Positions 8,846 to 62,028 of a stretch of 64,000 nt of DNA are shown piece after piece. The position numbers and the translations under genes were made by a program. The stretch is from Polychytrium aggregatum (taxonomy: Eukaryota; Chytridiomycota; Chytridiomycetes; Polychytriales). The stretch spans positions 248,001-312,000 of the forward strand of contig NW_026516214.1 in NCBI RefSeq assembly GCF_025602895.1, read 5' to 3'. Position 1 is the stretch's first letter; each line of letters starts with the position of its first letter. The notes beneath the pieces were generated by a model. It was not told where the DNA came from, made no database searches, and saw only the letters and a program-made list of their open reading frames with translations.

Positions 8846-9570
8846 GGAGTTGAAGACGGGAGGGACCTGCAGTGGCGCTGGACGAAGCACAGGCAGGGCG
8901 GGTGAGCCAGAGTCAAAGAGCGTGAGCAGGGCCAAAGACTTTCGAGATCTCGGAGCAAAGGAAACGAGATTCCGAGCGCCCGCCAGCGCAATCGAGCGCC
9001 AGGTTGGCTTGCACACAGGGCGATGGCCAGGCTGTCGGGTCCACCGGACATATCCGAGATAATCCATATTGCTCCTCTCTCAACCCGGTACTTGGGCCGT
9101 CCATCCATCCACTGGGCGCTGCCGATGGTCGCAGAGGCCAGTGTGATCAGGAAGCCCGTGTCTGGCCGCTGGCAGCCAAGCGAGGATCAAGCGCGGGACA
9201 TACCAGGACCGAGGCGTGGGTCGTGGATGTGCTTGCAGATGCGGGACGGTGTGCTTTCGACGGAGCAGATGCCGATGCGGCTGCAGACGTGGATCGGATG
9301 CGGATGGAGCTGCAGATGCGGTGCAGGAGGCGATACAGATGCGGGTGCCGAGGCAGATGCAAGTTAGAGCGCCGCCAGCGTCTGAGTCAGGCAAAGACAC
9401 GCCCCGGATCCATCCCGGCTGAGCGTGCCTGTGCATCATCTCGGTTTGCATCATCCCGGTTTGCATCATCCCGGTTTGCATCATCTCGGTTTGCATCGTC
9501 GAGTTATATCTGTCTTTATCCTCCCGTTCCGGCCAGTCCAGCCAGCCCCGGTCACATCCCTCTGCTCGCC
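8846..9570. promoter_or_regulatory. Divergent upstream region with 15-bp repeat
   Basis: This is shared 5' DNA of the PHD-SPOC gene (-) and the folate gene (+). GATGCGG-type imperfect repeats lie around 9235-9365, and about five copies of a 15-bp unit (GCATCATCCCGGTTT) lie at 9431-9500, just before the folate synthase start. The ORF frame stays open upstream of 9571, but that extension looks non-coding. Confidence 0.45.
9431..9500. repeat. 15-bp tandem repeat upstream of folate synthase
   Basis: The unit GCATCATCCCGGTTT, with C/T variants, repeats about five times and ends some 70 bp before the ATG at 9571. Because the period is a multiple of three it keeps a reading frame open, which artificially extends the ORF upstream. 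Confidence 0.8.
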
Positions 9571-10851
9571 ATGTCGATCGAGCTCGGTCTCGCAAAGATC
9601 ACCACGCTGCTCGCTGCCCTCGGCAACCCCCACGAGAAACTCAAGATTGTGCATGTGGGCGGCACCAACGGCAAAGGCTCCGTGTGCGCCTACATCTCCA
9701 ATACCCTCACCTGTGCCGGCTACAAGACCGGCCGCTTCAATTCGCCGCATCTCGTCGCTCCCAACGACTCGATCCGCATCAACGAACAGGCCATATCGCA
9801 GGAAGTCTACGTCCAAGCCCGAGCCGCTGTCACGCAGATCAATGCCAAGGAGGGCGTCCAGGCGTCGCTTTTCGAAATCTTGACCGCCACGGCATTCTGC
9901 CTGTTTGCCCAAGAAGCTGTCCAAGTCGCCGTCATTGAAGTTGGGCTGGGCGGCCGTCTCGATGCTACAAATGTGTGCTCAAGTCCCCTCGTCTGTGTCT
10001 TCACCTCCATTGGCCTCGATCATGTCGATCTGCTTGGCGACACCCATGCAAAGATCGCTCGTGAAAAGGCTGGGATCATGCGGAGCGGCGTTCCTGTCGT
10101 CGTCGGCCACCAGGCCAACTCGGATGCCAAGTTGGTCTTGGTCGAGCAGGCTACGGCCCTCGGCTGTCCTCTCGAACTCGCGCAGCCGCTAATCAAGATC
10201 CAGGACTCGGACGACACTCAGCTTGTCTCTGCCCGGTTTGCCGGCGCCAATATCGAGTTCCAACTGCCTCTTGTGGGCGATTTCCAACTCGAAAACTCGG
10301 CCATTGCCCTCAAGGCCCTCGAGTTCCTGCAGCACCCTCGCGCTGGCTTTGCCCTGTCGCCCGAGGCAGTCATCCAAGGCATGTCAACCGTTCGCTGGCC
10401 AGGTCGCCTCGAGTGGATCACGGCGCCGGCCGTTGGAAGAATGGTCATCGATGGAGCACACAACGCCCCCGCTGCGATCGAGCTTCGACGCTTCATCGAC
10501 AACTACCACCGCAGACACCCACTCGCTCCCGCTGCAACCACATTCATCTTTGCCATGACCCGCGGCAAAGACATGGCCAGCGTGTTGTCGCATCTGCTGC
10601 GAGCAAACGATCGGCTCGTCGCCGTGCCCTTCAGCCAGCCCGAAGACATGCCCTGGATCCACCCGACACTGCCTGCGGATATCGTTGCCCTGGTTGAGGA
10701 GCGATTTGCTTCGGTCGAGTGCGAGGCGGCGGCAGATCTGGACAGTGCCTTCCAAACAGCGGGCACGCCCGCATCGCAAGGACTGGTGGTTCTGTGCGGA
10801 TCGTTGTACCTTGTCGCCGATGTCTACCGACACCTGTCCCTGCCGCTGTGA
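9571..10851 (+). CDS. FOL3: Dihydrofolate synthase / folylpolyglutamate synthase
   Basis: Mur-ligase family enzyme that adds glutamate to dihydropteroate or folate using ATP. Single exon, 426 aa. It shows the ATP-binding loop HVGGTNGKGSVCAYI near residue 28, the substrate segment RFNSPHLVAPNDSIRIN, the family motif EVGLGGRLDATNV, FTSIGLDHVDLLGDT, and in the C-terminal domain RWPGRLEW and DGAHNAPAA. The length fits the short FOL3-like form rather than the longer FPGS. The ATG at 9571 is chosen because homology starts at once (MSIELGLAKITTLLAALGNP) and the upstream frame is repeat. The lack of introns is unusual for this window. FOL3 rather than FPGS (MET7) is inferred from length and the N-terminus. 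Confidence 0.9.
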   Translation: MSIELGLAKITTLLAALGNPHEKLKIVHVGGTNGKGSVCAYISNTLTCAGYKTGRFNSPHLVAPNDSIRINEQAISQEVYVQARAAVTQINAKEGVQASLFEILTATAFCLFAQEAVQVAVIEVGLGGRLDATNVCSSPLVCVFTSIGLDHVDLLGDTHAKIAREKAGIMRSGVPVVVGHQANSDAKLVLVEQATALGCPLELAQPLIKIQDSDDTQLVSARFAGANIEFQLPLVGDFQLENSAIALKALEFLQHPRAGFALSPEAVIQGMSTVRWPGRLEWITAPAVGRMVIDGAHNAPAAIELRRFIDNYHRRHPLAPAATTFIFAMTRGKDMASVLSHLLRANDRLVAVPFSQPEDMPWIHPTLPADIVALVEERFASVECEAAADLDSAFQTAGTPASQGLVVLCGSLYLVADVYRHLSLPL

Positions 10852-22705: not shown

Positions 22706-25516
22706 TCACGTTGCCACACTCGACCGGTGCCTGGTTTCAATTATGGAGACTCGCGGCGGCTCCGCTTTGGTAGGCGGCGCCTCTGGCGGCGCTCCGCTTT
22801 GCTTCTGAAGCCGAGCCATCCGGGCCTTGAAGGTCTCTCGGATATGCAAGCCAACATCCGGGAACTGGAGCAGGATTCGGTTGAAGTCATCCTGCATCAG
22901 CTTGTAGACCAGCAGCCTCGTCTTGGCCTTGACCGTGGCCGTGCGCGGGGCTCCTGTAATGAGCGATACCTCTGGCCAGCAGTCCATCAAAACTTTAGGG
23001 CACAGTTGCTGTAACGAGTGGCATGTCATCCCATCATAAGCAGTCGGCATATACGCTCTTCTGCAGGTCAGGCTCCACAGACCTCCGAAAAATGACCCGT
23101 CTTCCATTTCGGCCACCACGCTGCCCTTCACAATAACTGACGCCTTCCCCGTTTGAATAAAGTACATGTCGGATCCGTCCTGTGGGCGATGTAAGATTCA
23201 GTTCCGGCTCAGCAAGCGAACGCACCGGAACCGCTTCTCGAAAGCTGGCTTACCTCGCCTGCGCTGAAGACAATCTCGTCTTCGATGTAGTAGCCCGATA
23301 TCAGCGCCATGCACAGCTCCGTGAGAAAGAGCTCGTCCCGGCCGTCGCACTTGTTACGCCGCAGAAAGTCGACCTTCTCGATCAGTCCACGGCAGTTGAA
23401 CAGAGCAATCTCTTGCAGCATTGATCGATTGAGGTCATTCAACAGATCCTGTTGGGAGTACACGCAAGCGCTCGTTGGCAACAGCCCGACCGAGCATTCG
23501 CTGAGCGACGATGTTTTCGAAGGCCCTGCGCCCGTGCACCATCAAACTCGAATACGGAAGCCGCCCCAGTGTCTCGAGCTCAGCGCTCATGGCATAGTTG
23601 TCAAATGCATGGCGCCATGGCGGTCAAAACGACCTCGTACCTCCTGAAAGATCTTGCCCTGGTACTTGACCCGAAAGTACCGTCGGACCTTGACGCGAAT
23701 GGCTTCGGGGAACCTGTTGAATCTCAGATACTCGTTGACCATGTCGAGCTTTTGTCGATAGATTCGTCCGGAGGGATCGATGCCCATGACGAGTGACGAG
23801 AATGTCCCGATGATCAACCAGTACTGATGTGGTTGCGGTCAAATCGATGAGCGCGAGTGGGATGCACGGCTATGGCGATGTGCACCTGCCAAGGCCGCCA
23901 TTGGTAGGGAAGAGGCATCTGTTTGCGAACGAGGTAGCTCTACTCACCAGAATGGCCGATACGATCGTAAACACCATAAACATTGTCTGTTCGTTGATCA
24001 TGCTGATGCTAGGCGCAGGAAACTCGGGTCAGCGGGGAGCCGATCTGCCGTGCGCTGTCCACTCGTCATATCACTCCAGCGGAGCCACCATCCGCTCGCC
24101 ACATCTTGCGTTTCCAAGTGGCATTCTCAACCCAGCCTCCCTGATGTTCCAATGACACCATCCTGTTTCGCTGGCTTGCTACACAGGACGACTTTGCACT
24201 GATAGCTTACTGTAGTCGTCTGACGTTGAGCGGGAATGTGTTTGAGACTGCAATAAAGAACCCGTAGGCATATTCGGCTGCGATTTGGACGTAGATCAGC
24301 AGCTCTGGGGTCTGGCCCCTGTTCTCCATCATCACCCATACCATGCACGCCTCCCAGTGCATCAGAATGACGAGCAGCACTGTCGTGGAAATCAACGCCC
24401 ACAGCAGTTCACCAATGTTGAAGAACTCCTCCAGCATATAGCGAAATTGGCGGAAGATCTGGGACTTGGAGATCAGCTTGGGAAAGTGCCGGGTTCGGAG
24501 CAGGTGGATCAGGACCAGGAATCTATAACCTGGGATCGGAAGCAATTCGAACGGGAACAGAGATATCGCGTCGGCGAGAATCCCAAGGCGGTCGAGGATG
24601 ATGGTCGTGGCTATGGTCTTTTCTTGGCTCGGGAGCTGGTCCTCCAGCACTCGCTGGGTGAGCTGGACGATGATGGTGTCGGCGATGAAGATGGCTGTTG
24701 TGACCAGTCCGACGGGGAGCACCATGGCTCGGACACTGTCGTATGCCACGATCACCGGAAACAGCCAGAGCAGGAGAAAGTAAAAGACTGGCTCCCGAGA
24801 GAGAGCCCAGAAGACCATGCAGTTGCAATTGTTAGCTCATTCTCACGATCCACGACACGACTGCCCCGGGGATCAAGCAATCCGTTCGTTCGCTGATGGC
24901 CAGCAGCCGTAGACACACCTCCCATCAGCAGATCCCAGAAGGCGCGGAACTCTGAGAACGGATGAATGACCCGAATGGCCTTCTTCTCGACCTGGACATT
25001 CTGCAGTGTTTCCTTGTAGGACCATTCAACGGGTTTCTGGAAGACGTCGCTAATACTCTCGCGCCTGCTGCGTCGGCGGGACTGGGAGGCTTCGCTCCAG
25101 CTGCTCCGACGGGAGTCGTCATCGGCGGCGGGGAAGGACATGGTGGATCTCATATCCTGCGTCGACATGAGATCGATGTTTTTTCGAATCTCCTGTATAT
25201 CCTTCTTGGACTCTTCGAGGTTGCGTTTTAGGCCCTGGAGGTGACTCATGACCGTTTCGTTCATGCGGGCTCGCGATAGATCGCTCTTGGACTCGCGGCC
25301 GACTGCCGACCGGCTGTTGTTGAGGCTTCGAGTGTTTTCCAGATCGCTGACATCAATCGGGTGATCAAGCCCCGCTCGGCTTCTGGAGCCCGAGAGCAGA
25401 CTCGCAGAGCCGCTCTCGTTGATGCCCCTGCCCCGCGAGCGAGAAAGGATGTGGCTCGAGAGGTTGTACCCCTGGCCTCGATGCATATCTGGGGATAACA
25501 TGGTCCATGCGTTCAA
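22706..25516 (-). CDS. Cyclic-nucleotide-gated (CNG/HCN-type) channel, copy 1
   Basis: Six-helix cation channel with a C-terminal cyclic-nucleotide-binding domain. Seven exons join in frame to 658 aa: 25516-24919, 24787-24211, 24008-23948, 23823-23641, 23448-23254, 23179-23083 and 22971-22706. A Ser/Arg-rich N-terminus leads to FQKPVEWSYKETL and VIHPFSEFRAFWDLL, which precede S1. An S4-like segment is FLVLIHLLRTRHFPKLI. The pore region reads YGFFIAVSNTFPLNVR, unlike the usual K+ or CNG filters. The C-linker is IYRQKLDMVNEYLRFNRFP. The binding cassette (GSFFGEVSLITGAPRTATV) keeps the Gly-Glu and Arg-Thr residues that hold cyclic nucleotide. Exon phases match copy 2 at 30-33 kb exactly, so the pair is a tandem duplicate. 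The start codon is the first Met of the open frame. Confidence 0.92.
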
Positions 25517-25889
25517 GGTCGACAGAGAGAGCTAGGCTGTAGATGAGCTCGTGGAGTCGACGATGGGCTTGGACCGGTGTGAATCTGGTGCTGGGTTATC
25601 GCGAGCCCGCGCTCAAGGGGACACTTCGACATGCAGATGGTTCGTGTGGTTGGAATGATGCTGATCGATGTGGTTGAATGACGTCAATCGGCAATGGCGC
25701 TCTCGCGGTGGACTCGGCCGATGCGATATCGGCCTCAACTCAGCTATTAGTATTGGAGTCTTGGACTGGCTCCAGAGATGGACATCCAGGGAGATGGCCT
25801 GACTCGCTTGGCCGCTGTTGGCCGTTGTCGACTGAGTATGATAAAGTGTAGTATACTCTTTGACTCGATTACAGGCAATCCAATAAAAA
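25517..25889. other. CNG1 upstream region before the transposase relic
   Basis: 5' DNA of CNG1, about 370 bp, ending at the GGGACACCGGG motif that marks the left part of the mobile element. No ORF is recognised. Confidence 0.4.
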
Positions 25890-26759
25890 ACGGGACACCG
25901 GGTTTTTGACCATTCATCGAATATTTTGTTACCCAAAACCATCGCGCGCTGGCCATGACCATTCGCCACACATCCGACTTTCGCACCGCCGCATTGCGAT
26001 GCTACGCCCTCATCCATAGCCTGCGTAAGGTCGCCTCCATATTCAGTGTATCCAAGAGCACCATCCATCGATGGCACCGAGGATGCAAGCTGGATGACCC
26101 ATCCCGGGTCCCAGCTCGCAGATCCACTTTCTTTGAGCAGGCATGTCCAGTCATTCGCACCCTGATTGAACAGGACCCGTTCCAGACTGGTCCTGTGTTG
26201 CGATGCAAGCTCGAGTCCATCCTCCAGAGGAAAGTATCACTCTCGCTCTGCCACACTGCCATCCACCGAGCAGGTCTCTCACACAAGAGGGCAACACACC
26301 TCTACAAGTCCAAGCGACTGGATGAGCGAGTGGCACAGTTCAGGGACCAAGTCCACTCCATCGACCCACGGCGGCTCGTTTTTGTCGATGAGACAGGGAT
26401 CAGGAGATCCATTTTCCCTCTCTACGGATACTCACCGAAGGGTGCTCCGCTTCGCCAGCGCAATCACATGAAACACAAGTCTGTCTCGGCTGCATTTGCC
26501 ATCAACCACTGGTGTGCTGCATCGCATGTACATCCCCACATCATTCAAGACACACTCGATGGTCGAGTTCTTTGAGCGAGCGAGCTTCCCAGACGACTCT
26601 GTGATTGTGATGGACAATGTCAGCATGCACAAGACAATGGCTGTCCTGGACTGCATCGATCGCCGAGGATGGTCAGTGATCTTCACCCCACCTGCTTCAC
26701 CCGACTTCAATCCCATCGAGAACTTCTTTGGGGTTGAGTCCCCACCGCTTTGGGGTTGA
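25890..26759 (+). pseudogene. Broken Tc1/mariner (IS630)-type transposase
   Basis: The reading frame starts at 25955 (MTIRHTSDFRTAALRCYALI) with a helix-turn-helix (LRKVASIFSVSKSTIHRWHR), then the first catalytic Asp in RRLVFVDETG. Near 26500-26510 the frame changes by one base. The second frame (to 26759) holds DSVIVMDNVSMHK, with the second Asp, and SPDFNPIENFF, with the third acidic residue (Glu). All three catalytic acids exist but in two frames, and the protein ends right after ENFF, about 30-60 residues short of the usual C-terminus. The loss coincides with the GGGGTTGAGTCCCC repeats at 26727-26787. Upstream, 25890-25910 carries a GGGACACCGGGTTTTTGA motif shared with the relics, possibly an element end. 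Confidence 0.85.
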
Positions 26760-26787
26760 GTTCCTCCAATTTGGGGTTTAGTCCCCC
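26727..26787. repeat. Three tandem GGGGTTGAGTCCCC hairpin units at the element junction
   Basis: The units lie at 26727-26743, 26749-26767 and 26770-26787, spaced by about 22 bp. Units 1 and 3 can each fold into a hairpin with a GGGG/CCCC stem; the middle unit is degenerate. They mark the exact point where transposase coding stops and the Fanzor 5' region begins. Confidence 0.75.
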
Positions 26788-26894
26788 AATCACGCCGCCA
26801 TTTTCACGCTCACATCCCTGGCTTGAACCTCTCGACGATTTTTGAACAGGGTCGCTTCCCAACCAACCCGCAAAGACGGGTTCCTGCTCTCGGG

Positions 26895-26900
26895 TATAAA
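26895..26900 (+). promoter_or_regulatory. TATA box of the Fanzor gene
   Basis: TATAAA in the context CGGGTATAAATGCC, 130 bp before the Fanzor ATG, with no other gene between. It is a plausible core promoter for the nuclease gene. Confidence 0.5.
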
Positions 26901-27029
26901 TGCCACACCTTCGTCCTGCTGCTTTCTTCCCTCATCTCGCCTTGATCGGATCATCGCGCCATTGTACGATAAAAAAAAGTCTCTGCTCTGACGAGTACCA
27001 CTTGCAGGCATCCAGCATCCTCTGCCCCC

Positions 27030-29375
27030 ATGCCTCCGAAGCGCAAGGGTACCGGTGATGGCCAGCCTCAGCCACCCAGGCCCAAGAAAGCCAAGTCACA
27101 GTCGGAGCCTGTCTCTGGTTCGTATTCTGACCCCACGCATGCTTGGTCGTCTGTTGCTCCGTCGCTCACCACCACTGCTTCTACAGATCCAATGGATGTC
27201 GATCCCACCGAGCCTGGTCCATCTACTTCCTCGAGTACCGGCAAGCGATGTCGCCAGTGCGACGGTACCGATCACGAACGTTGCAACACCAGCAAATGTC
27301 CCAAATACCGGCCCCTCAAGAGTTCTGTCGTCCCACTCGTGGATGGAAGGTCATCCGCCCCTCAGTTCAGCTGCTTCAAGCAGACGATGGATGGCTGTTG
27401 TCTCAATCCCGCTCTCCGCGACAAGATCCAGGCCACCGTCGAGGCCATGACCCAGATCCAGTTCGAGGCATCCAGGCTGCTCAACCTGCACATCCTCCGG
27501 TGCATCGAGCAGGATCTTCCCGTCCCCGTCATCTCCAAGTCCACCCCTGCTTTCGTTCGCCAATGCTTCAAGATCGTCCAGGACGGTGCCCTCTCCCCGA
27601 CCGGGGACAATGAGAAATACAACGAGCATCTGGTCGCTTCCTTTCGCGACTACCAGACCACTCGGCACGCAGACCTGCCTCCGGCCCCTCGTCTGCCTGA
27701 TGGTGCTCACAGTCAGCTTCTCACCCTGGCTGTCAATGCCTATGCTACCAACTGCACCACCCACCTCGACCTGGCCTACTGGCGACTCCTTCGCCGCTTC
27801 TGCGCTGCCGTCTTCCCAGCCAACAAGCATAAGCACGAAGCCATCGAGGCCTGTCTCGAGCTCTTCGAGAAACCAGGGCAGACTCCACCCAAGGCCGATA
27901 TCGAGTTCCTCTATCCAGACTTTGGCCACGTCCTGGACGAGTTTCGGTACAGCAACGACCAGGACCGCTTCCGGGCCCTCCATCGCCTCTCACACCATGT
28001 GAGAATCCTCGCTCGAGACAAGATGGTCGACAATGTCCACAAGTGGATCGACTGTGACATGCCCGCCCTCCGAGTCACTGAGCTGCAGCGCCAGGCCAAG
28101 CTGGACGAGCTCACTACCCAAGGCATTCCCTCCGACGACAAGAGGTTCACCAAGGCCAAGATCAACAAGCTGGCATCCAGGATCAAGTGGTGCCTCAAGC
28201 AGCTCGCTCTTGACACTCCTCCGGCCGTGTGCACGATGGTTCCTCTGTGCACTGCCACGGCCAAATACATCAAGATTGACACGGTCACTCTCTGGGAACT
28301 CCTTGACACCGATCATCGTCTTGGCCTCACCAGGGACAAGCTCAAGGAAGAAGGTGAGGACGGTGTCAACAACCAGGATCGTCTCTGGCGCAGTTGCTTC
28401 AAGCTGCGTAGTTCCCTCTTCCAAGAGCGAGACGTGAACAAGAAGCTGTTCAACTACGAGATCAGCACCGATGGCATTGGATGCACCATCGGCCTCGTCA
28501 AGTTTTTGCGTCGAACCGATCACACCGAGACCCCCGAGCCTCCTCCGACTGCCGAGCAGCGTATCCAGACCCACATCGGCGACCCAGACCCCGATCGCAC
28601 CACTTGGATTGGCATCGATCCTGGAGTCGGCTCCATCTTCACGGCGGTCATCCAAACACCGGGCCACCAAGACGAGGTGGTCTCATTCTCCAATGGCCAC
28701 TACCAGCACATGTGTGACCATACGTCCAACACCAAGTGGCACAATATCATGAAGTATCGACTCAGCATCGAGACCTGGATGTCGACCACCCCCTCGCCCA
28801 AGGTGTCATCCTCGGAGGCCTTCAAAGTCCATCTCACCCATGTCCTGCGACCGGAGCTGCGAGTGCAGCTCGACTTCCACCTTGGCAAGAAGGCCCGTCA
28901 CCATCGCTTCACGGGCCACAGGAGACGCCAAGTGGCCGTCGACAGGATGTGCAAGGCCGTCCTGAAGCACGCCCCGAAACGGACCGATGTGGTGATCGCC
29001 TTTGGCAATGCCTCATGGCGGCAAGGCAAGGGCTATGCATCCAGCCCTCGGAGGCAGCGGTTTGCTCGGTACTTTGAGCAATTCGAGCACCACCGACGCC
29101 GTCCCAATCACCATCATGGAAGCGTCAAGGTGGCCTCGACGAACGAGTTCAACACCTCGCAAGTGTGCTCCAAGTGCCTGGAGCCAGTTCGGTTGGAAGG
29201 ACTCGATGCGCCCAGTGTTGCGAATTCCCACTTTGTCAGGAGCTGCAAGAATCCCAGCTGCCGGACAGTGTGGAATCGCGACGTCAATGCGGCGCGCAAC
29301 ATGATCACAGTATGCAGGTCGATTGTGGAGATCGGAGAGCGACCGGCGGTCTTCACTCGGAGGCTGCCAAAGTGA
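27030..29375 (+). CDS. Fanzor (eukaryotic TnpB-like) RNA-guided nuclease
   Basis: Single uninterrupted exon, 781 aa, in a region where most genes are split. The N-terminus is basic and Pro-rich (MPPKRKG, RPKKAKSQ), a likely nuclear localisation signal. It is followed by a Cys/His knuckle, C74-x2-C77-x4-H82-x2-C85, with C90 nearby. Residues about 100-520 form the long WED/REC-like part. RuvC-I is WIGIDPGVGSIFTAV with D530. The segment at the usual RuvC-II Glu reads FGNASW (658-663) and lacks a Glu, but E706 in STNEFNTSQVCSKC could serve as the alternative Glu described for Fanzors and their TnpB relatives. A C4 zinc site is C713, C716, C739, C744. RuvC-III is WNRDVNAARNM with D751. Nothing in the ORF looks broken. 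Known Fanzors are programmable DNA nucleases using an omega-RNA from the element's 3' end. Activity here is inferred. Confidence 0.93.
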   Translation: MPPKRKGTGDGQPQPPRPKKAKSQSEPVSGSYSDPTHAWSSVAPSLTTTASTDPMDVDPTEPGPSTSSSTGKRCRQCDGTDHERCNTSKCPKYRPLKSSVVPLVDGRSSAPQFSCFKQTMDGCCLNPALRDKIQATVEAMTQIQFEASRLLNLHILRCIEQDLPVPVISKSTPAFVRQCFKIVQDGALSPTGDNEKYNEHLVASFRDYQTTRHADLPPAPRLPDGAHSQLLTLAVNAYATNCTTHLDLAYWRLLRRFCAAVFPANKHKHEAIEACLELFEKPGQTPPKADIEFLYPDFGHVLDEFRYSNDQDRFRALHRLSHHVRILARDKMVDNVHKWIDCDMPALRVTELQRQAKLDELTTQGIPSDDKRFTKAKINKLASRIKWCLKQLALDTPPAVCTMVPLCTATAKYIKIDTVTLWELLDTDHRLGLTRDKLKEEGEDGVNNQDRLWRSCFKLRSSLFQERDVNKKLFNYEISTDGIGCTIGLVKFLRRTDHTETPEPPPTAEQRIQTHIGDPDPDRTTWIGIDPGVGSIFTAVIQTPGHQDEVVSFSNGHYQHMCDHTSNTKWHNIMKYRLSIETWMSTTPSPKVSSSEAFKVHLTHVLRPELRVQLDFHLGKKARHHRFTGHRRRQVAVDRMCKAVLKHAPKRTDVVIAFGNASWRQGKGYASSPRRQRFARYFEQFEHHRRRPNHHHGSVKVASTNEFNTSQVCSKCLEPVRLEGLDAPSVANSHFVRSCKNPSCRTVWNRDVNAARNMITVCRSIVEIGERPAVFTRRLPK

Positions 29376-29490
29376 TCTGTTTTATTTCTTGTGGCTTTGC
29401 TTGACGCAAGCACAGCACATACTACATGTTCATGGAAACGGCTATATTATCTCGTTTTTTTCTGAATAAAGTGTAGGCTGCATCTGACCG
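29376..29490 (+). ncRNA. Candidate omega-RNA / 3' end of the Fanzor transcript
   Basis: In studied Fanzor loci the guide RNA comes from the ORF 3' end and downstream sequence up to the element boundary. Here the 115 bp after the stop contain a perfect 6-bp hairpin with a 3-nt loop (TGCTTG-ACG-CAAGCA, 29398-29412), a T-run, and an AATAAA poly(A)-type signal at 29465-29470. Neither the guide boundary nor the element's right end can be fixed from sequence alone, so this is a location hypothesis. Confidence 0.3.
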
Positions 29491-30006: not shown

Positions 30007-33000
30007 CTACACATCGCCCATGATGTTGCCTGACACCAGGAGATCCCCGTTGACGCTGATATTCGGGTTCATTCCAAAGGCTATTGAATTGCTGCGGCTG
30101 GAGACTCCCCCTGGTATTTTGGTCAGCCCTGCTTGAATGGTTTCTTTCAGCACCTTGGACATGCGCGCCGCAAAAGCGGCTTGGATGGTCTGGCCGACAT
30201 CGGGGAACTCATTCAGAATCTGGTTGAATCCCGACTGTCCGAGCTTGTACATGACACTCTTGCGGTTGGCCCGCACTGTTGCCGTGCGTGCGCTTCCCGT
30301 TATCATGGAAACCTCTGGGTACATCCAGCCAGGGCGGAAGAGCCGGGCGCTGTTAGCAACCCTTCCCTTTGATACGGCGACTTTGGCTTCTGCAGCCACA
30401 GCTTTGATTGCGCGGTTGTAGTGAGCTTCACGGATCAAAGAGCCTCACCTCCAAAGAAGCATCCGTCCGACAGTTCGGCAACGCTCATTCCGTTGACAAT
30501 CACGCTAACGTCTCCGGACTGGATGAAGTACATATCTGATCCTTCCTGTTTGGCACACACGATCGTCCGGCGGTGAGTTCAGTGTGCCGAGAGGCACTGG
30601 ATCGGCTTGCATAAGATCTGGCCTTGGGATGGCTTTCAATGACGGAAACAAACCTGTCCACTCGTAAAGATGATTTCGTTCCGGATAAAATAGCACGGCA
30701 CCAGCGCCATGCACAGCTTGGTGAGAAATAGCTCGTCGCGGCCGTCGCCTTTGTTGCGACGCAGAAACGACACTTTCGATATCAGGTCCCGGCAGTTGTA
30801 CATGGCTATCTCCTGCCTCATGGACTCGTTGAGCTCTTTCAGCAGCGTCTCCTGCGCAGCATCAACAGGGATCCAAGCGCATTCAGCCCGAGAAATGAGC
30901 AGGGTAAGTACCGCTGCACAAGATGTCCGCGTAATTCGTGGTGCAGTTGCTGCACAGCGGACAAGAAAGCCGCAAAACAACGAACGCAATGATATGCATG
31001 ACCACAGCAATCCCATCATGACGTGACATGTTGTTGCATCCATGTCAGCGACGCCTGGATCATGGCTACTTGCCTCCTCGAAGAACTTTCCGTGGTATTT
31101 GACCTGGTAGAACTCTCGGACTTTGGCTCGGGTTGAGTCGGGAATCTTCTTGAAGCGCAGATACTCATTTATGGCGTCGATTTTTTGCTTGTATTGCCGA
31201 CCGGAAGCATCGAAACCCATGACCAGCGATGAAAACGTTCCGATGATGGCTGCGTACTAAAGATCGAGACCAGAACGAGATTACAGCACAAATCGATGCA
31301 GTGCGAAGACGACCCGTCAGCAACTCCAGCAGCACCAGTAGCATCAGTAGCATCAGCAGCACTTACCAGCACTGCACACACAATTACAAAGAGAATGAAA
31401 ACGTTTTGCTCCGAGGTGATATACGTGCTAGTGTTGAAACCGCAATGTGAATTGTCTGCATTTCCCACAAAGTATGCCGGGCCGCCAACCCCCGATTGAG
31501 CCGGAGCGCTGTCTTGCTTTGGTCATCCTGCCTCGTTCAACAGTGCCAACCCGAGTATGCTTGCAGCCTCAAATGAACCCAAGTCGCGTTGCTGCTGTAT
31601 AGGGGCCACAAGTGCATCACAGGCCCACATTCGATTCGTGCCGAGTCAAGCCGCTGGCCGCTCACCTGAAGCTCAGCGGGAAGGTGTTGGAGACGGCAAT
31701 GTAGAAGCCCCAGACGTACTGTCCGCCAAAGCCCTGGTTGACGAGCTGATCCCGATACTCAGCTGGCCATGATGCGTATCCGTTGGCTTTGCCCATGATC
31801 CAAACGGCGCATGACTCCCAGTGCAAGATGATGAGCAGACTAAAAGTGAGTCCGATAAGGGTCCAGATCAACTCTCCGATGTCAAAGTGCTCCTCCAGTT
31901 CGTATCGTATCTGCTTGAAGATCTGTGACTCTGATATGAGCTTGGGAAAGTGGCGAGCTCGCAGGAGATGGATCAGGACGAGCAGGTTGCTGTTTGTGAC
32001 CGGAAGGAGCTCGAACGGAACCATACTGATCAGATCCATGAGCACTCCAAGGTAGAACGAGAAGGGTGTTGGCTTCTTGATGTTCTCGCCGTCCTCGACG
32101 ACCTTCTGTGTCAGCTGCCCGACGACGCTGTCGCACACATAGATTGCCGAGGTGAAGATGCCCATTGGTACAACGGCGATTTGAAAGACATCAAAGGCAA
32201 CGATCAGCGGCACGAGCCATAGCAGCAGGAAGTAGAACGCTATTGGTACAAGAAGTTCCGATGAGCCGTCAGAAGTGCAGGCAAGTCATGCAAAACTGCA
32301 GAACAGGTAGCGAGTTGGTCTGTCGGCAGCCCCCATCAACGCATGCCAATGCAAACGGCCTCCAGGAGCGGATATGCTTCATGAATCTGCTCGACGGAAG
32401 CGATATCACCACCCGCGCTCTTCGTTGTGCCCGAGCGTATCGACGATACGCGGCCAGTGTGCGGGGCTGCTTCGTACCTCCCATAGTCACATCCCAGCCG
32501 GCCCGAAATCCCGAAAACGGATGGATGATCTTCAGGGGCTTGCTCTCAATCTTGATGTTGGGCTGCCGGTTGACGGTCCACTCGACTGGTTTCGAAAAGA
32601 CCTCCTGGATGCTTGCCCGTCTGTTTTTCCGGGCCATCGACGGCATAACGCTTGCCTCTTCGTCAAAGTCGGGGACTTGATCGTGTACTTCTTCCAGGTG
32701 TTCTTGCGAAGTGTGCGGAGAGGACCGCGAGGGTGCGGTGACCTGATTGTCGTTACCCCCGGCGTTTTGGTTTGGATCGACGGCGCTTGTGTGTTCGTGG
32801 GCTGACCGACCATCGGACAGCGCCAGGAGGCTCTTCTTGATCTCGGAGAGTTCCTGGTTAGAGACCAGGATGTCGTTCCGCATGTCGCGGAGCATGGCCT
32901 CAACGGCGGGGTCGATTCGCGTCGACTCGTATCCCGATGCCGAAACCGAACGCCGTCGATGGGCGAGGCCGAACGACCCATCCTCAGACCGAGACCGGGG

Positions 33001-33084
33001 TTGCAGATCGCGGCGCTCATACAGCTCGTTCGTCGGGAGGATGATTTGACTTTGGCTTTTGCTCTCCACGGAGCTCTGGCTCAT
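30007..33084 (-). CDS. Cyclic-nucleotide-gated (CNG/HCN-type) channel, copy 2
   Basis: Seven exons join in frame to 675 aa: 33084-32478, 32239-31666, 31427-31367, 31256-31074, 30851-30654, 30545-30449 and 30314-30007. Exons 3, 4 and 6 (61, 183 and 97 nt) have the same lengths as in copy 1, and all phases agree. Landmarks are FSKPVEWTVNRQP, IIHPFSGFRAGWDVTM, the S4-like LLVLIHLLRARHFPKLI, the pore stretch WGFYIAVSNTFPLSF and the binding cassette GCFFGEVSMITGSARTATV, with ligand-contact Glu and Arg-Thr present. Intron 4 appears to use a GC donor (GAG|GCAAGT). Protein divergence from copy 1 is large, so the duplication is not recent. Confidence 0.92.
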
Positions 33085-40607: not shown

Positions 40608-41673
40608 TCCGAGCAAGTGCCTCCTCCGTGCAGACAACCGTCCGTCGGTCCTCAGCCCATCCGCTCTCTACTTCCGCAGCTGTTCGTCGCTTGCTGCATC
40701 GGTTCCCTCAACGGCATCGCTCTCCACAGCACCCGGCCTCTGTGAATCGCTCTGCAATCAATTCGTCCCGGTGGTGAGTTGCTGTCCCTTGCTTATGCCT
40801 CGGCTTGTGCTGCCTCCCTCTCCCTCTAATACCCGAATTCCAAGGACCAGCACCGCCGGCGTCTCCCGCATCTTGTGCAGTGCCCCCGATCACTCTGCGC
40901 ACCCGGGCCCGCCCCAGGCCCGGCGTCCTGCAGACGAATCCCTCGCCGTGCTGTTATTTACCCCTCTCTGCATTGCCTGGCTTCCTGGTGTGCTTCCGGC
41001 GTCGTCTCCTTTCCCATCACGCCCGCTGTGTTTGTCGCGCCCCTCCAATCAGACCAGCGCTCGTTTGGGTGCCTCCGCGCCATCTGTTTCGTCGCGCTGA
41101 CCTTTCCCTCCCGTCGCGTGGTCGGCGGACATCCTCCCCTCCAAAAGCCCACAGGCCCACCCGCCAGCACACCCAAAGGCGCATCCAGCCTGCTTGGCCC
41201 AAAGCACCCATCGACATCGGCGCACCTTTGCACCAACACAAATCTTATCGCCTTTCGCAGACGACACCATCGGCACAGCGCCGCGCCTCCCCTTTCGGAC
41301 ATTCAACCGCCGTCCAGCCGAGCCTTCTGGACGCGAGTTCCCTCTGCCTCAATCTTATCCACCACAGACCACAGACCACACACCGTCTCTGTGTCTAACC
41401 TGACCTGGCCCTGGCCTGGCCTGACCCCGCATCGCTGCATTGCATTTGTCACCACAGGCCAGCTCTGCCCTACATCGTCCGACCCTTCACCGTCCAGAGC
41501 CCTCCTTCGAACCCGGTTCCCACGCCCTGCACAAGCTCGACCAACCATCTAACCCCCCCCCTGTGGTCTCCACTTTGATCCAATCATCTACTTTTGAGCC
41601 TCCGTGGCCACCAATCTCCTTCACCTTTTCCTCTCCCAATTGCTCGCCGCCAGGCCTGGTCATCTCTGGCACC

Positions 41674-43327
41674 ATGAGCAACTCTGTCCGAGGTGCCATT
41701 TACTCCAACGTCCCGGTCTGGGAAATCCGCGCAAAGAACATACCCGTCATGCGCCGCCAGGCCGATGGCTACATCAACGCCACACAGATCCTCCGAGCCG
41801 CCGGCTTGACCAAACCCCAGCGCACTCGCATCCTGGAGCGAGACGTCGTCGGGGGCACCCACGAAAAGGTCCAGGGCGGCTACCACGGCTTCCAAGGAAC
41901 ATGGATCCCGCTTGAGCGTGCAAAGTCCCTCGCCAACGAATACGCACTCTACACCGAACTGGAACCGCTCCTGAGCTACGACGCCGCGCCCCTGGCCATC
42001 GACCCAGAATCTGAGGCCAAGCGCCGCAAAAAGCTCCTGTCCACCCCATCCTCGCCGCTGCAGTCGCTGTCGCCCGGTCCCATGGAGGCCGGCGGTCCAT
42101 CGCTTCTCGACTCCCCCACAAGCAGCCGCCGATCCGCCCGAGCCGCTGCCTACGCCAGCCGCGGCTTCGCCCGCAGCCAAAACCAAGAGAACATTCCCCC
42201 ACTGGACTCGAGCAGCACCGACGATGAACCCAGCCTCCGATCCCATAGCCACTCGGGCCTCTTTGTGTCGTCTTCAGGACAGTCTCTGCGTCTGGGCGGC
42301 CGAGACGTCGACCATGTCTCAGCCATAATCAGTGTCACTCCTGCCACGCCCACAGAGCTGTCAGAGTCGGAAACAACAGATGGCCCCGTGCACCCGGCCA
42401 AGGTCAAGAGATTCTGCAGCATCTGTCACACTACCGACACGCCACAGTGGAGACGGAGCCCGGTTGACGGAAGCACCCTTTGCAATGCATGTAAGTAGGG
42501 TGTCCACTCGCTTGGATTCGCTTCCTGCCTTGCCGATGGTCCAGCCACAGCGATTCGATCAGTTTCATCCGCTGGGCTTGCCCTGATCGCTGCACCGATG
42601 ACTCGCCCATGTCCTGTGCACCGAGTTTGACCCCTTTGTGCTTCGACTTTATCTAGGCGGTGTTCGTCCATACGGAAGCCGCGTGAGAGCCGCCAACAGC
42701 CGCCGATCCGACTCCAGCGATGTCAGCAGCCACGAGGTCGAGTCCGCTTCGCCGAGCCGTCATTCGCGCTACCAGAGCGCCAATTCGACCAGCTCAGTCC
42801 CTGGCACCGCGGGTCCAGCCCCTCCAACCGACCCATACCAACTCGAGCGCGAGATTCTGCAGCTCAGACAGTCCGTCACCAGCAGCGAGCGCGATCGCAA
42901 GAAGATGGTCCGCGTCCTGAACCAGATCCGGGAGCAGGACCGTGCCCGCGATGCCAGCTTTCGCCGCATCATCTCAAAATGCAAGGCCTACAAGATCCAC
43001 AAGAGACGCGAGACCAAGATGGCCGAGTTCGCTGCTCTCTATGGCAACGAGGACTGCAACATGTCCGACGACGACGACGACTCGATGATGACCGACCACG
43101 ACGACCAGAGCGACGATCTTGAGGAGGTCGACAACCATGCCACCCAAAGCCAGCTCCAGAACTCTTTCTTGGATGCCGTCTCCAAGTTCAAGAGGAGGCG
43201 CGAACTCGAGCTCAAGTCGCTCATTGTCCCGTCCTACGACGAAGACAGCCCAGTGCCGACCGGAGTCCCGATGCACGACCGGCCCGTCGATGCCACCAAT
43301 GTCGGTCGCCCAGGCACCATGATGTGA
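41674..43327 (+). CDS. APSES/KilA-N DNA-binding protein fused to a GATA zinc finger
   Basis: Nuclear transcription regulator, 495 aa from two exons (41674-42490, 42657-43327). Residues about 10-105 form the KilA-N/APSES fold of the Swi4/Mbp1 type (IPVMRRQADGYINATQILRA, then TRILERDVVGGTHEKVQGGY and GFQGTWIPLERAKSLANEY). A disordered Ser/Arg-rich linker follows. A GATA finger is C248-x2-C251-x18-C270-x2-C273 (CSICHTTDTPQWRRSP, then LCNACGVRPYG), with the last Cys codon split by the intron. The C-terminus has a coiled coil (LEREILQLRQSVTSSERDRK) and an acidic patch. Ankyrin repeats, usual in Swi4/Mbp1, are absent. The ATG at 41674 is chosen because the KilA-N domain starts close after it. Confidence 0.9.
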
Positions 43328-60220: not shown

Positions 60221-62028
60221 TCACACAGTGGTCGGGTACGAGTGGTTGCGCGAAACAGGATATGGGCCGAGCGACAGCGTGCCCTTGCACACGAAACACA
60301 ATTTCGGGCATTCGTGGATATCGTCCATGTGCGTCTTGAGCGTTGCGGCATCGGCGCTCTCCATACTTCGCAGCAGATGCTCCAGCTCCTGCTCGACAGC
60401 AGGATCAACGGTGGTGCTGGGTCGGGCGGCATAGTTGGACGAGTCCTTGAGGGCAAAGCTGACCTTCCGTCGCCCCAGCAGCGGTTTCAGATCGGGCGTC
60501 GAGTCAGATGCGACGGGGGTTGGTATAACTGGAGACGAGTTGGATCGTGACCGATTCAGATAGATGGATTTGGGCTTTTGGAGAGCACTGCTGCTGTCGG
60601 CGCTTCCGTCAGCACTGCGATCGGATTTGTCGCTGGCGCCCGGTACAGGTTTGGCGGGCCGGGTAGGAGACTTGGAGAGGATGCCGCGGCCCAGTGGAAA
60701 GGACGGGGGCAGCATCGTGCTCATACCAGGCTCGGACTGCGAAAGGGTCGGGCGAATAAAGATTGTCCAGTAGCGCTCCAAAAAGTGTTCCTGGAGACGG
60801 TTGCGCACATATTCGCCGGTGTGCGAAAACGGATCATCCGAGACCCAGGTCTGCGGGTGAAACTGCAGCGACTGAGGTCGGATGCGCCGCAGGCTCTTGA
60901 GCGCCTCGGCAGCGGTGCACTGGTACTTTTCCATCAAATAGACTGCCAGGAAGATGCCGGTGCGGCCGACGCCGGCCTTGCAGTGGACCGCGACCTTTTT
61001 GCCCTTTGCGATGGTCTCCTTGGAGCTCTTGACGAACTGGCGGAGTTGCGACCAAGTCGGCACGGAGCCGTCGTGGACGGGAAGGAACAAGACCTTCATC
61101 TCGCTTTCGGGCTCGAGCAGCTCGAAGACGTCTGGATCCACAGCGGTGTCTTGATATGAGCCTGGTCAGGGTTGGGTTGCGTTGGGTGGGGTTGGATGAA
61201 CAGCAAGCGGATGGGTGTCAGGTCAGGGGCTCGCAGCTACCAACCGGCGTCAGGTAGCGGATGCTCAGGGCCGTCGGTCGAGCAAGAATGCACCAACGAG
61301 AAGCGGGACTCACATTTCATACAGCGGATTCCTCCGTTGGGATCCCGGCCAGCTATCAGCGACTCGGTGGTGTTGACGACCAGTCCGACGCCGATCTCAA
61401 CCAGAGCGCTCCAATGGCATTTGCGATCCTGTAAGCAGGCCGTGCAGAGCATTGCGCCGCAGGGGTAGCATTGACGAAGAGACCGCCGTTGAAAGTCGTC
61501 GTGGGAGCGATGGTGGTTAGTGGCGACATTCGGGAGCTGTTGCCGACAGAAGCGGATTCGCACAACCCTGGGCTGGCCAGTGCCCAAGGACCACAGACGA
61601 TCGTGCGGGGTGTCCATGATCCACTGGAGCACAGAGTGGGGTGGGGAGAATGCCGAACCTACCGGGATGCTCATGCCGGCAATCATGCCGTCGTCGATCC
61701 ACGAAAAGTGCCGGGGCAGCCGTTCATCGGCAGGATAGTAGCTCACAGTCTCGGGGACAGCGACTGCAGGCTGAGTCGCAGCCGGGAAGACCGGTCCCGA
61801 CACAGGACGAGGCGGACGAACGGGCTGAGGCAGCAAAGCGGGCTGATCGGCGGCCTGCTTGCGGCTCGAGCCAAGCTCGGGCTGCGAAGAGCGCCGGATC
61901 AACCGCCGAGGGCCGCGGGAGGGGATGCCGGGGCTATGTTGGGGAGCGGTGAACAGCACCGACAGATCAAAGAAGGCCCAGAGTGTGTTGAGGTTGATTC
62001 GATCCTCCGACAGGGAGAGCGGGGGCAT
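60221..62028 (-). CDS. Atypical dual-specificity phosphatase (DUSP23/PTPDC1-like) with long tails
   Basis: Cysteine phosphatase. Three exons (62028-61663, 61428-61314, 61149-60221) join in frame to 469 aa. The first 100 residues are Pro/Arg-rich and disordered. The catalytic core begins LPRHFSWIDDGMIAGMSIP, then VEIGVGLVVNTTESLI and FLPVHDGSVPTWSQLRQF, which carries the likely general-acid Asp. The P-loop is VHCKAGVGRTGIFLAVYLM, matching HC-x5-R. After the core (RIRPQSLQFHPQTW) come about 250 Ser/Pro-rich residues ending in LCFVCKGTLSLGPYPV. DUSP23-like by the FSWIDDG-x-x-AG motif, but much longer than that family's usual 150 aa. Substrate unknown. Confidence 0.82.

Follow-up and report, generated by a model that had tools for sequence, protein, structure and literature searches.

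The DNA analysed here is a stretch of 64,000 nucleotides from the aquatic chytrid fungus Polychytrium aggregatum (contig NW_026516214.1, positions 248,001 to 312,000), hereafter called the window, to which all coordinates refer unless another contig is named. The gene at positions 27030 to 29375 of the window is almost certainly a Fanzor1 gene carried by a transposon of the Tc1/mariner type. Taken by itself, it is an ordinary new Fanzor1, located in an element of an already known kind, and not an isolated intact gene. The element belongs to a family of about 250 genome hits, the copies of which are mosaic in sequence. We read the family as shaped by break-and-copy retention, possibly driven by the Fanzor protein, and assign a probability of about 50% to the whole of the mechanism that is proposed below.

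The Fanzor1 gene and the transposon that carries it

The open reading frame (ORF) is located on the forward strand and encodes a protein of 781 amino acids without internal termination codons. An earlier note on this DNA, made from the letters alone, had described an open frame with the catalytic residues D530, E706 and D751 and the zinc-site cysteines C713, C716, C739 and C744, and every one of these letters was correct: D530 is found in IDPG, E706 in NEFNTSQVC and D751 in WNRD, and the 4 cysteines are all present. The N-terminus reads PKRK and RPKKAK, which resembles a nuclear localisation signal, as had also been noted from the letters. The Pfam domain PF07282 (Cas12f1-like_TNB) was identified at residues 699 to 758 with an E-value of 6.4e-9 and a score of 36.3 bits (cut-off 26.3). 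In addition, the protein showed a weak resemblance to TnpB in NCBIfam, under the cut-off, and a weak resemblance to Cas12f in PADLOC.

A search with the full-length protein recovered none of 7999 scored candidates at E-values up to 1e-3, and a single-sequence search of the PDB identified no Fanzor at E-values up to 1. With residues 505 to 781 as the query, 5 relatives were found, which included 3 metagenomic proteins and 2 fragments labelled Polychytrium aggregatum, a member of the Chytridiomycota; the earlier assignment of the DNA to a chytrid-type genome was thereby borne out. A profile of the window protein (P0001) and the 3 metagenomic relatives was then compared with solved structures. 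It matched SpuFz1 (8gkh) with an E-value of 1.8e-8, and the catalytic triad was aligned such that D530, E706 and D751 were paired with D383, E541 and D606 in SpuFz1, in agreement with the spacings of 158 and 223 on the SpuFz1 side. The 3 residues are described as binding metal ions in SpuFz1 (PMC10432273). The gene had previously been named a Fanzor, with alignment to characterised Fanzors proposed as a check, and this alignment upholds the name. Weak profile matches over the C-terminal part were obtained for the mimivirus protein L79 (9b0l; E-value 7e-7) and for GtFz1 (9cer; E-value 0.0038); GtFz1 and the other solved Fanzors are distant and have an unrelated element context.

The Fanzor1 motif as given by Bao and Jurka (2013), D-X(125,275)-[TS][TS]XX-C4 zinc finger-X(5,50)-RD (PMC3627910), is present in the window protein as D530, T709 S710 Q711 V712, C713/716/739/744 and R750 D751. 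Two further features that have been described for Fanzors, a DPG at RuvC1 and an alternative E located 6 residues ahead of the zinc site (PMC10711439), were seen as D530-P531-G532 and as 6 residues between E706 and C713. A stricter search pattern used in the same source, DPGx(120-160)Ex6CxxCx(12-18)CxxCx(4-8)D (PMC10711439), did not match the window protein, which has 173 residues between G532 and E706, 22 residues between C716 and C739, and CxxxxC in the second half of the zinc site. This pattern is a search filter and not a definition, and the solved SpuFz1 likewise has a zinc site of the form CxxC...CxxxxC in the alignment. A search of viral contigs by pattern gave 59 matches, none of which was confirmed.

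It was also noted that 2 public Polychytrium proteins, P0002 (1140 amino acids) and P0003 (640 amino acids), hold C-terminal pieces of Fanzor with 66% and 53% identity. The matches cover 40% to 48% of the queried region and are joined to male-sterility/AMP-binding and F-box protein sequences. These proteins stem either from insertion into genes or from errors in the gene models, and they indicate a second Fanzor family.

The borders of the element were read from 30 of the 59 stretches with copies in the genome (see below), each of which was cut out with 1.5 kb on either side. The left end of the copies reads TA-CAGGCAATCCAATAAAAAACGGGACA and the sharp right end common to the copies reads ...CTGAATAAAGTG-TA. 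The terminal inverted repeats are imperfect: AAAAAACGGGACA is common to both ends, and the outer 12-13 bp differ. The aligned copies are bordered by a TA duplication on either side, which, together with the terminal inverted repeats, identifies the element as a member of the Tc1/mariner type. Its features are as follows.

25868 to 25871, forward strand: ATTA, target-side bases and the left TA of the target-site duplication (25870-25871); predicted target motif (TAM) of the WTTA type
25872 to 29473, forward strand: Tc1/mariner-type element with Fanzor1, 3602 bp without the target-site duplication; borders from 30 copies and the ends of fetched copies
25955 to 26759, forward strand: broken Tc1/mariner DDE transposase in two frames, with the 3' part replaced by other sequence; HTH_23 and DDE_3 matches
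26895 to 26900, forward strand: TATAAA, present in each of the 46 aligned copies and probably the core promoter of Fanzor
27030 to 29375, forward strand: Fanzor1 ORF of 781 amino acids (790 is usual among the copies), with a 27-nt deletion near 28153
29376 to 29473, forward strand: predicted omega-RNA scaffold, from the stop codon to the right transposon end, placed by analogy with SpuFz1
29474 to 29475, forward strand: right TA target-site duplication, read from the sequence and the copy ends
29476 to 29490, forward strand: predicted guide, comprising the 14-15 nt of right flank that follow the TA, by analogy with SpuFz1

The earlier note had treated the gene, its promoter and its polyadenylation signal as a unit. 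The TATA box is indeed found 135 bp ahead of the ATG and is conserved in all aligned copies. The AATAAA is also present about 90 bp past the stop codon (29465-29470) and kept in 41 of the 46 copies, but it falls within the terminal 12 bp of the transposon; the proper unit is the transposon, the right end of which holds the AATAAA. Similarly, the gene had been called intact, which holds for the open frame and the catalytic residues, whereas 27 nt have been deleted in this copy alone and the transposase of its element is broken.

The first transposase ORF in the window gave weak matches to HTH_23 and DDE_3, and the second matched DDE_3 with an E-value of 5e-12. The longest transposase ORF in the window copy is 206 amino acids, compared to an ORF of 310 amino acids that has been kept in 12 of the 46 copies. 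In copy L002, the 310-residue ORF matched DDE_3 with an E-value of 1e-23, which identifies it as a DDE_3-type transposase; a search of the PDB with the transposase gave no match. The window copy belongs to those members of the family in which the transposase is defective.

Mosaic copies, same-site haplotypes and element ends

The genome searched consisted of 64.7 Mb in 418 contigs. Scoring of 58 of the 1279 first-look candidates resulted in 59 stretches with 94% to 100% protein identity, and a full-length Fanzor ORF was obtained from 48 of 50 loci. Together with the 24-mer matches given next, the 59 stretches show that the open frame in the window is no product of chance. A 24-mer at the catalytic D had 248 matches in the genome at no more than 3 mismatches (0 for the reversed control), and the right-end sequence had 278 matches at the same threshold. 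Since both numbers include second-haplotype copies of the same site, the interpretation of the 248 matches as 248 separate loci was rejected.

Linkage between variable sites in the ORF (44 copies, 175 sites) decayed within a few tens of nucleotides, with r2 values of 0.32 at distances below 10 bp, 0.09 at 10-25 bp and 0.03 at 25-50 bp, compared to 0.024 in permuted data. The same decay was obtained for the whole element (213 sites), and also when the best-scoring copies and the unselected copies were analysed apart. Large indels have been shuffled as well: 7 of the 8 combinations of 3 indels, A, B and C (243, 134 and 108 nt), were seen among 46 copies. For indels A and C, linkage to sites no more than 50 bp away was tight (mean r2 of 0.51 and 0.68), and none was seen to sites more than 200 bp away. 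Indel B is flanked by 8-bp direct repeats and could recur, so it weighs less. The variable left extents of the copies had been considered as 5' truncation of the retrotransposon kind, which was rejected because the internal indels account for them. At positions 26726-26790 of the window, it was noted that three 22-nt repeats of the CTTTGGGGTTGAGTCCCC type take the place of the transposase 3' part, as they do where block C is absent (16 of the 46 copies).

At 5 sites, two copies with shared flanks were found on two contigs (L002/L020, L013/L037, L027/L045, L044/L056 and L046/L057). In these pairs, the flanks differed at 7 of 5390 sites (0.13%; the longer right flank was used for L027/L045), whereas the elements differed at 540 of 18171 sites (3.0%), and 4 of the 5 pairs also differed by more than 100 gap columns. 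At further sites, paired by coordinates only, the elements were of equal length (L036), 38 nt apart (L043) and 325 nt apart (L047). Because the elements at the same site differ while the flanks hardly do, the copies must have exchanged sequence after insertion, provided that the repeats have been assembled correctly. None of the titles and beginnings of abstracts seen in a literature search concerned mosaicism among Fanzor copies.

The site in the window also has a second haplotype, L055 (C191:14300-18600), in which the element is interrupted, with the junction at window position 29103. Of the element, the haplotype on C191 retains the right-hand 371 nt, followed by the TA and 74 nt of flank, all identical to the window, and then enters other sequence, which contains a Ty3-type gag ORF with a zinc knuckle (PF03732, E-value 2.7e-12).

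The left flank of the element was found to be strongly biased. Genome-wide, the exact left end was preceded by T before the TA in 204 of 214 cases (TTA) and by another base in 10 (VTA). Among 43 fetched loci, in which flank bases were read at a fixed offset, with slight errors where an end has changed in length, the base at position -1 was T in 42 loci, and 40 had an A or T at -2. Following the right TA, G was seen in 18 loci, C in 12, A in 7 and T in 6, and there was no mirror bias for A. Judging from the flanking bases, WTTA is the predicted TAM. A fixed motif in the left flank is as in RNA-guided retention, and its attribution to the Fanzor is a candidate explanation.

The canonical left end, CAGGC or CGGGC, was present at 35 of the 43 loci. 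Among the noncanonical left ends, the first 4 bases were identical to the right flank of the same locus in L002, L005, L006 and L029, and matched it after a one-base shift in L038 and L044; in 20000 trials with random flanks, the observed sum was reached once. L002, L005, L038 and L044 count as the strong cases, and the second haplotype of L044 has the same left end as L044 itself. Bases of the right flank would be left at the left end if the element-free site was cut and the left tail was not fully trimmed as the element was copied, while a one-ended insertion closed by microhomology would be an alternative source. No empty site was found with the joined flanks of 12 loci. Both flanks were present on a second contig at 4 of these 12 loci, all of which were occupied, and for the window the right flank was identified alone, on C191. 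Old fixed insertions would give the same lack of empty sites.

Other observations were made at the flanks. Related ends with ...CGGGACA were seen beside insertions at L008_R, L009_R, L012_R, L015_R, L018_L, L029_R, L041_R, L046_R and L048_L; some flanks of this type hold pieces similar to the C-terminus of Fanzor and are probably short non-autonomous relatives. The right flanks of L008, L009, L029, L041 and L046 start with CAG, like the end of the element. The flanks of L044 (C8:64443-68779) resemble a cytochrome P450 exon (VKETQRLHPPAPL), within which the element would be inserted.

In the mechanism that we propose, the transposase would move the element into TA sites. The RNA from the stop codon to the right end would act as the omega-RNA, and the 14-15 nt at the start of the right flank as the guide, by analogy with SpuFz1. 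The guided Fanzor would cut the matching element-free site, recognised through the WTTA at the left flank, and the cell would mend the break from the element-bearing chromosome, whereby the element is kept or copied in. If repair synthesis switches between dispersed copies, it would give rise to mosaics and to same-site haplotypes that differ inside the element and hardly outside. The mechanism would unite what is seen directly in the copies, namely the element structure, the catalytic residues, the asymmetric WTTA, the mosaicism and the selection pattern. Its putative parts are the RNA, the guide, the cutting and the role of the Fanzor, rather than the transposase, as the starter of repair.

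A more specific version of the mechanism is an RNA-guided eukaryotic homing element, in which the Fanzor, guided by the right flank of each copy, would cut empty alleles flanked by WTTA, the element would be copied in by repair, and template switching during this repair would let a couple of hundred dispersed copies recombine almost freely. We regard this version as doubtful. If it is true, the copies represent a genome-scale record of Fanzor activity, written in the left motif, the right-flank bases, the occupation of both haplotypes, the divergence limited to the element and the purifying selection on spreading alleles.

Several points weigh against retention through breaks made by the Fanzor. 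The WTTA could be the preference of the transposase itself, the bias having been counted within the Fanzor family only; the mosaicism was likewise measured within this family. The window pair is identical over the remaining 373 nt of the element, compared to a difference of 3% in the other pairs. Of the deviating left ends, those of L004 and L040 do not match their own right flanks, and the exact matches are only 4, with L006 and L029 being one base from the canonical end.

The alternative that survives best is that the transposase acts alone, which we consider somewhat less probable than a retention process and yet a real contender. According to this explanation, WTTA is the insertion preference of the transposase, the mosaics result from the repair of excision gaps and from ordinary gene conversion, and the Fanzor is selected for some other role or in trans. 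Excision gap repair of the Tc1 type and concerted evolution are established processes, the transposase ORF is of intact length in a part of the family (12/46), and the breaks are not tied to the Fanzor by any measurement made here. However, a symmetric preference for TA predicts a mirror A after the right TA, where A is found at 7 of 43 loci, and excision gap repair does not readily leave right-flank bases at the left end, although both points are arguable because the two ends of the element differ. Even if the transposase acts alone, the family provides a strong example of dispersed transposon copies that exchange sequence very rapidly.

It is improbable, in our view, that the mosaics and the haplotype differences inside the element are unreal, as would be the case if read correction or polishing during assembly had shuffled bases among high-copy repeats. 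Near-identical flanks with differing elements are what a repeat-specific error would also give, but not only single bases have been exchanged: the large indels are shuffled too, with 7 of 8 combinations in 46 copies even if indel B counts less, and gaps of at least 100 nt separate the elements in 4 of the 5 compared pairs. Moreover, the sites adjacent to indels A and C are strongly linked within 50 bp, and there are a few real differences in the flanks (7/5390).

Selection on the Fanzor frame and its 3' region

The catalytic residues have been kept in nearly all full-length copies: D530 in 48 of 48, E706 in 47 of 48 and D751 in 47 of 48. To describe selection on the frame, amino acid and silent changes were counted in 43 copies and their ratio was divided by the expected ratio, which was corrected for the type of base change and for CpG context, with shared changes counted by event. 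The resulting values were 0.72 for singletons, compared to 0.38, 0.29 and 0.35 for alleles seen 2 times, 3 to 5 times and 6 or more times (singletons versus shared alleles, Fisher p 6.5e-5). In 15 unselected copies, the value for singletons was 0.88. With values of 0.72 to 0.88 for singletons and 0.29 to 0.38 for shared alleles, private changes are near neutral, whereas changes that spread have been filtered. No stop allele was present among the 155 alleles seen at least 6 times, compared to 4.1 expected.

Open frames are not special in the family, since 9 of 20 unselected copies, taken in contig order rather than by score from the exact matches to the 24-mer, were open, and the other 11 were broken or partial. 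That filtering occurs despite the many open copies suggests that the individual copy profits from its own frame, and selection at the level of the host may also play a part. It is very improbable that the Fanzor ORF is a passenger without activity, which has stayed open by chance or because it is young: this explanation accommodates the 11 broken or partial copies, the private deletion in the window copy and the near-neutral private mutations (0.88 in unselected copies), but not the constraint on shared changes, the absence of stops among common alleles or the almost invariant catalytic residues.

The 27-nt in-frame deletion near position 28153 was found in the window copy alone among the 48 full-length ORFs. 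It may be tolerated, because most of this region is absent from the 3 metagenomic relatives. The window copy was considered as a divergent outlier, which was rejected, as its mean distance to the other copies is 3.8% and below average. The earlier note had taken this copy to be expressed and catalytically competent; the conserved TATA box and the selection signal support the function of the family, not of the window copy as such.

In the 98 nt from the stop codon to the right end, the diversity was 0.029, compared to 0.080 at fourfold sites in the ORF. The consensus fold of this 3' region has a stem that is closed at the right end, and the single-strand fold of the predicted omega-RNA had a z-score of -1.76. 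The covariation term was 0.15 kcal/mol, with double changes in 4 of 28 pairs, which amounts to almost no covariation in the predicted omega-RNA, and no match to the region was found in Rfam.

Related systems and neighbouring sequences

The closest known system is SPu-1/SpuFz1 from Spizellomyces punctatus (Bao and Jurka 2013; Saito et al. 2023), which, as described in these papers, is also a Fanzor1 encoded by a single ORF in a chytrid, with terminal inverted repeats, a putative TA duplication and many copies (42 loci for SpuFz1). Conserved bases upstream of the left repeat have been described there as well, in that case CA, with CATA as the TAM (PMC10432273). About 80 nt between the stop codon and the right repeat of SpuFz1 are described as yielding the omega-RNA, the scaffold of which is predicted at the same place here, and the SpuFz1 guides are 14-15 nt beyond the right end (PMC10432273). 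In contrast, the SpuFz1 elements are about 2.1 kb and are described as having no transposase between the repeats, whereas the elements studied here are 3.6-3.7 kb, contain a DDE transposase in the fuller copies and have WTTA as the predicted motif. Mariner elements with Fanzor1 (Bao and Jurka; PMC3627910) are similar in that they combine Fanzor1 with a Mariner transposase and a TA duplication. By their description, they are set apart in being associated with viruses or present in single copy, while the family studied here has hundreds of hits in a free-living fungus.

The benefit of Fanzors to their own transposons is stated as an open question in the text of two sources (PMC10711439, PMC10432273). 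Existing DNA allows the role of the Fanzor to be addressed in this chytrid, of which two haplotypes have been sequenced and which has a couple of hundred copies that resemble each other, since the motif, the guide, retention and repair all leave traces that can be measured. In bacterial insertion sequences, TnpB is said to aid retention, or gene drive, in that the empty site is cut under guidance and then repaired on the element-bearing template. The mechanism proposed here would follow the same logic by analogy, in a eukaryotic DDE transposon instead of a bacterial insertion sequence. If homing is true, RNA-guided self-preservation by break and copy extends from bacterial insertion sequences to a eukaryotic cut-and-paste transposon. 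The Fanzor1 in the window is also of use as an additional enzyme for which a target motif is predicted.

The element is flanked by pieces of minus-strand ORFs that are similar to each other, at 24207-25516 and 30007-33084 (HLLRARHFPKLIS...), one of which gave a match under the cut-off to a cyclic-nucleotide-binding domain (E-value 1.6e-5). These pieces are probably two tandem ion-channel genes with introns, with the element in between. Elsewhere in the window, we noted an ORF of the Mur-ligase/folylpolyglutamate-synthase type at 9004-10851, an ORF for a protein with KilA-N and a GATA finger at 41440-42498, and an ORF for a dual-specificity phosphatase at 60221-61141. In the genome, there were at least 150 matches to reverse transcriptase (RVT_1), for example on C11, C115, C173, C201 and C366, very many of which had an identical score and a frame of 1284 amino acids. 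These matches were clustered with a spacing of a few kb and appear to represent a very uniform family similar to long interspersed nuclear elements, perhaps centromeric or subtelomeric.

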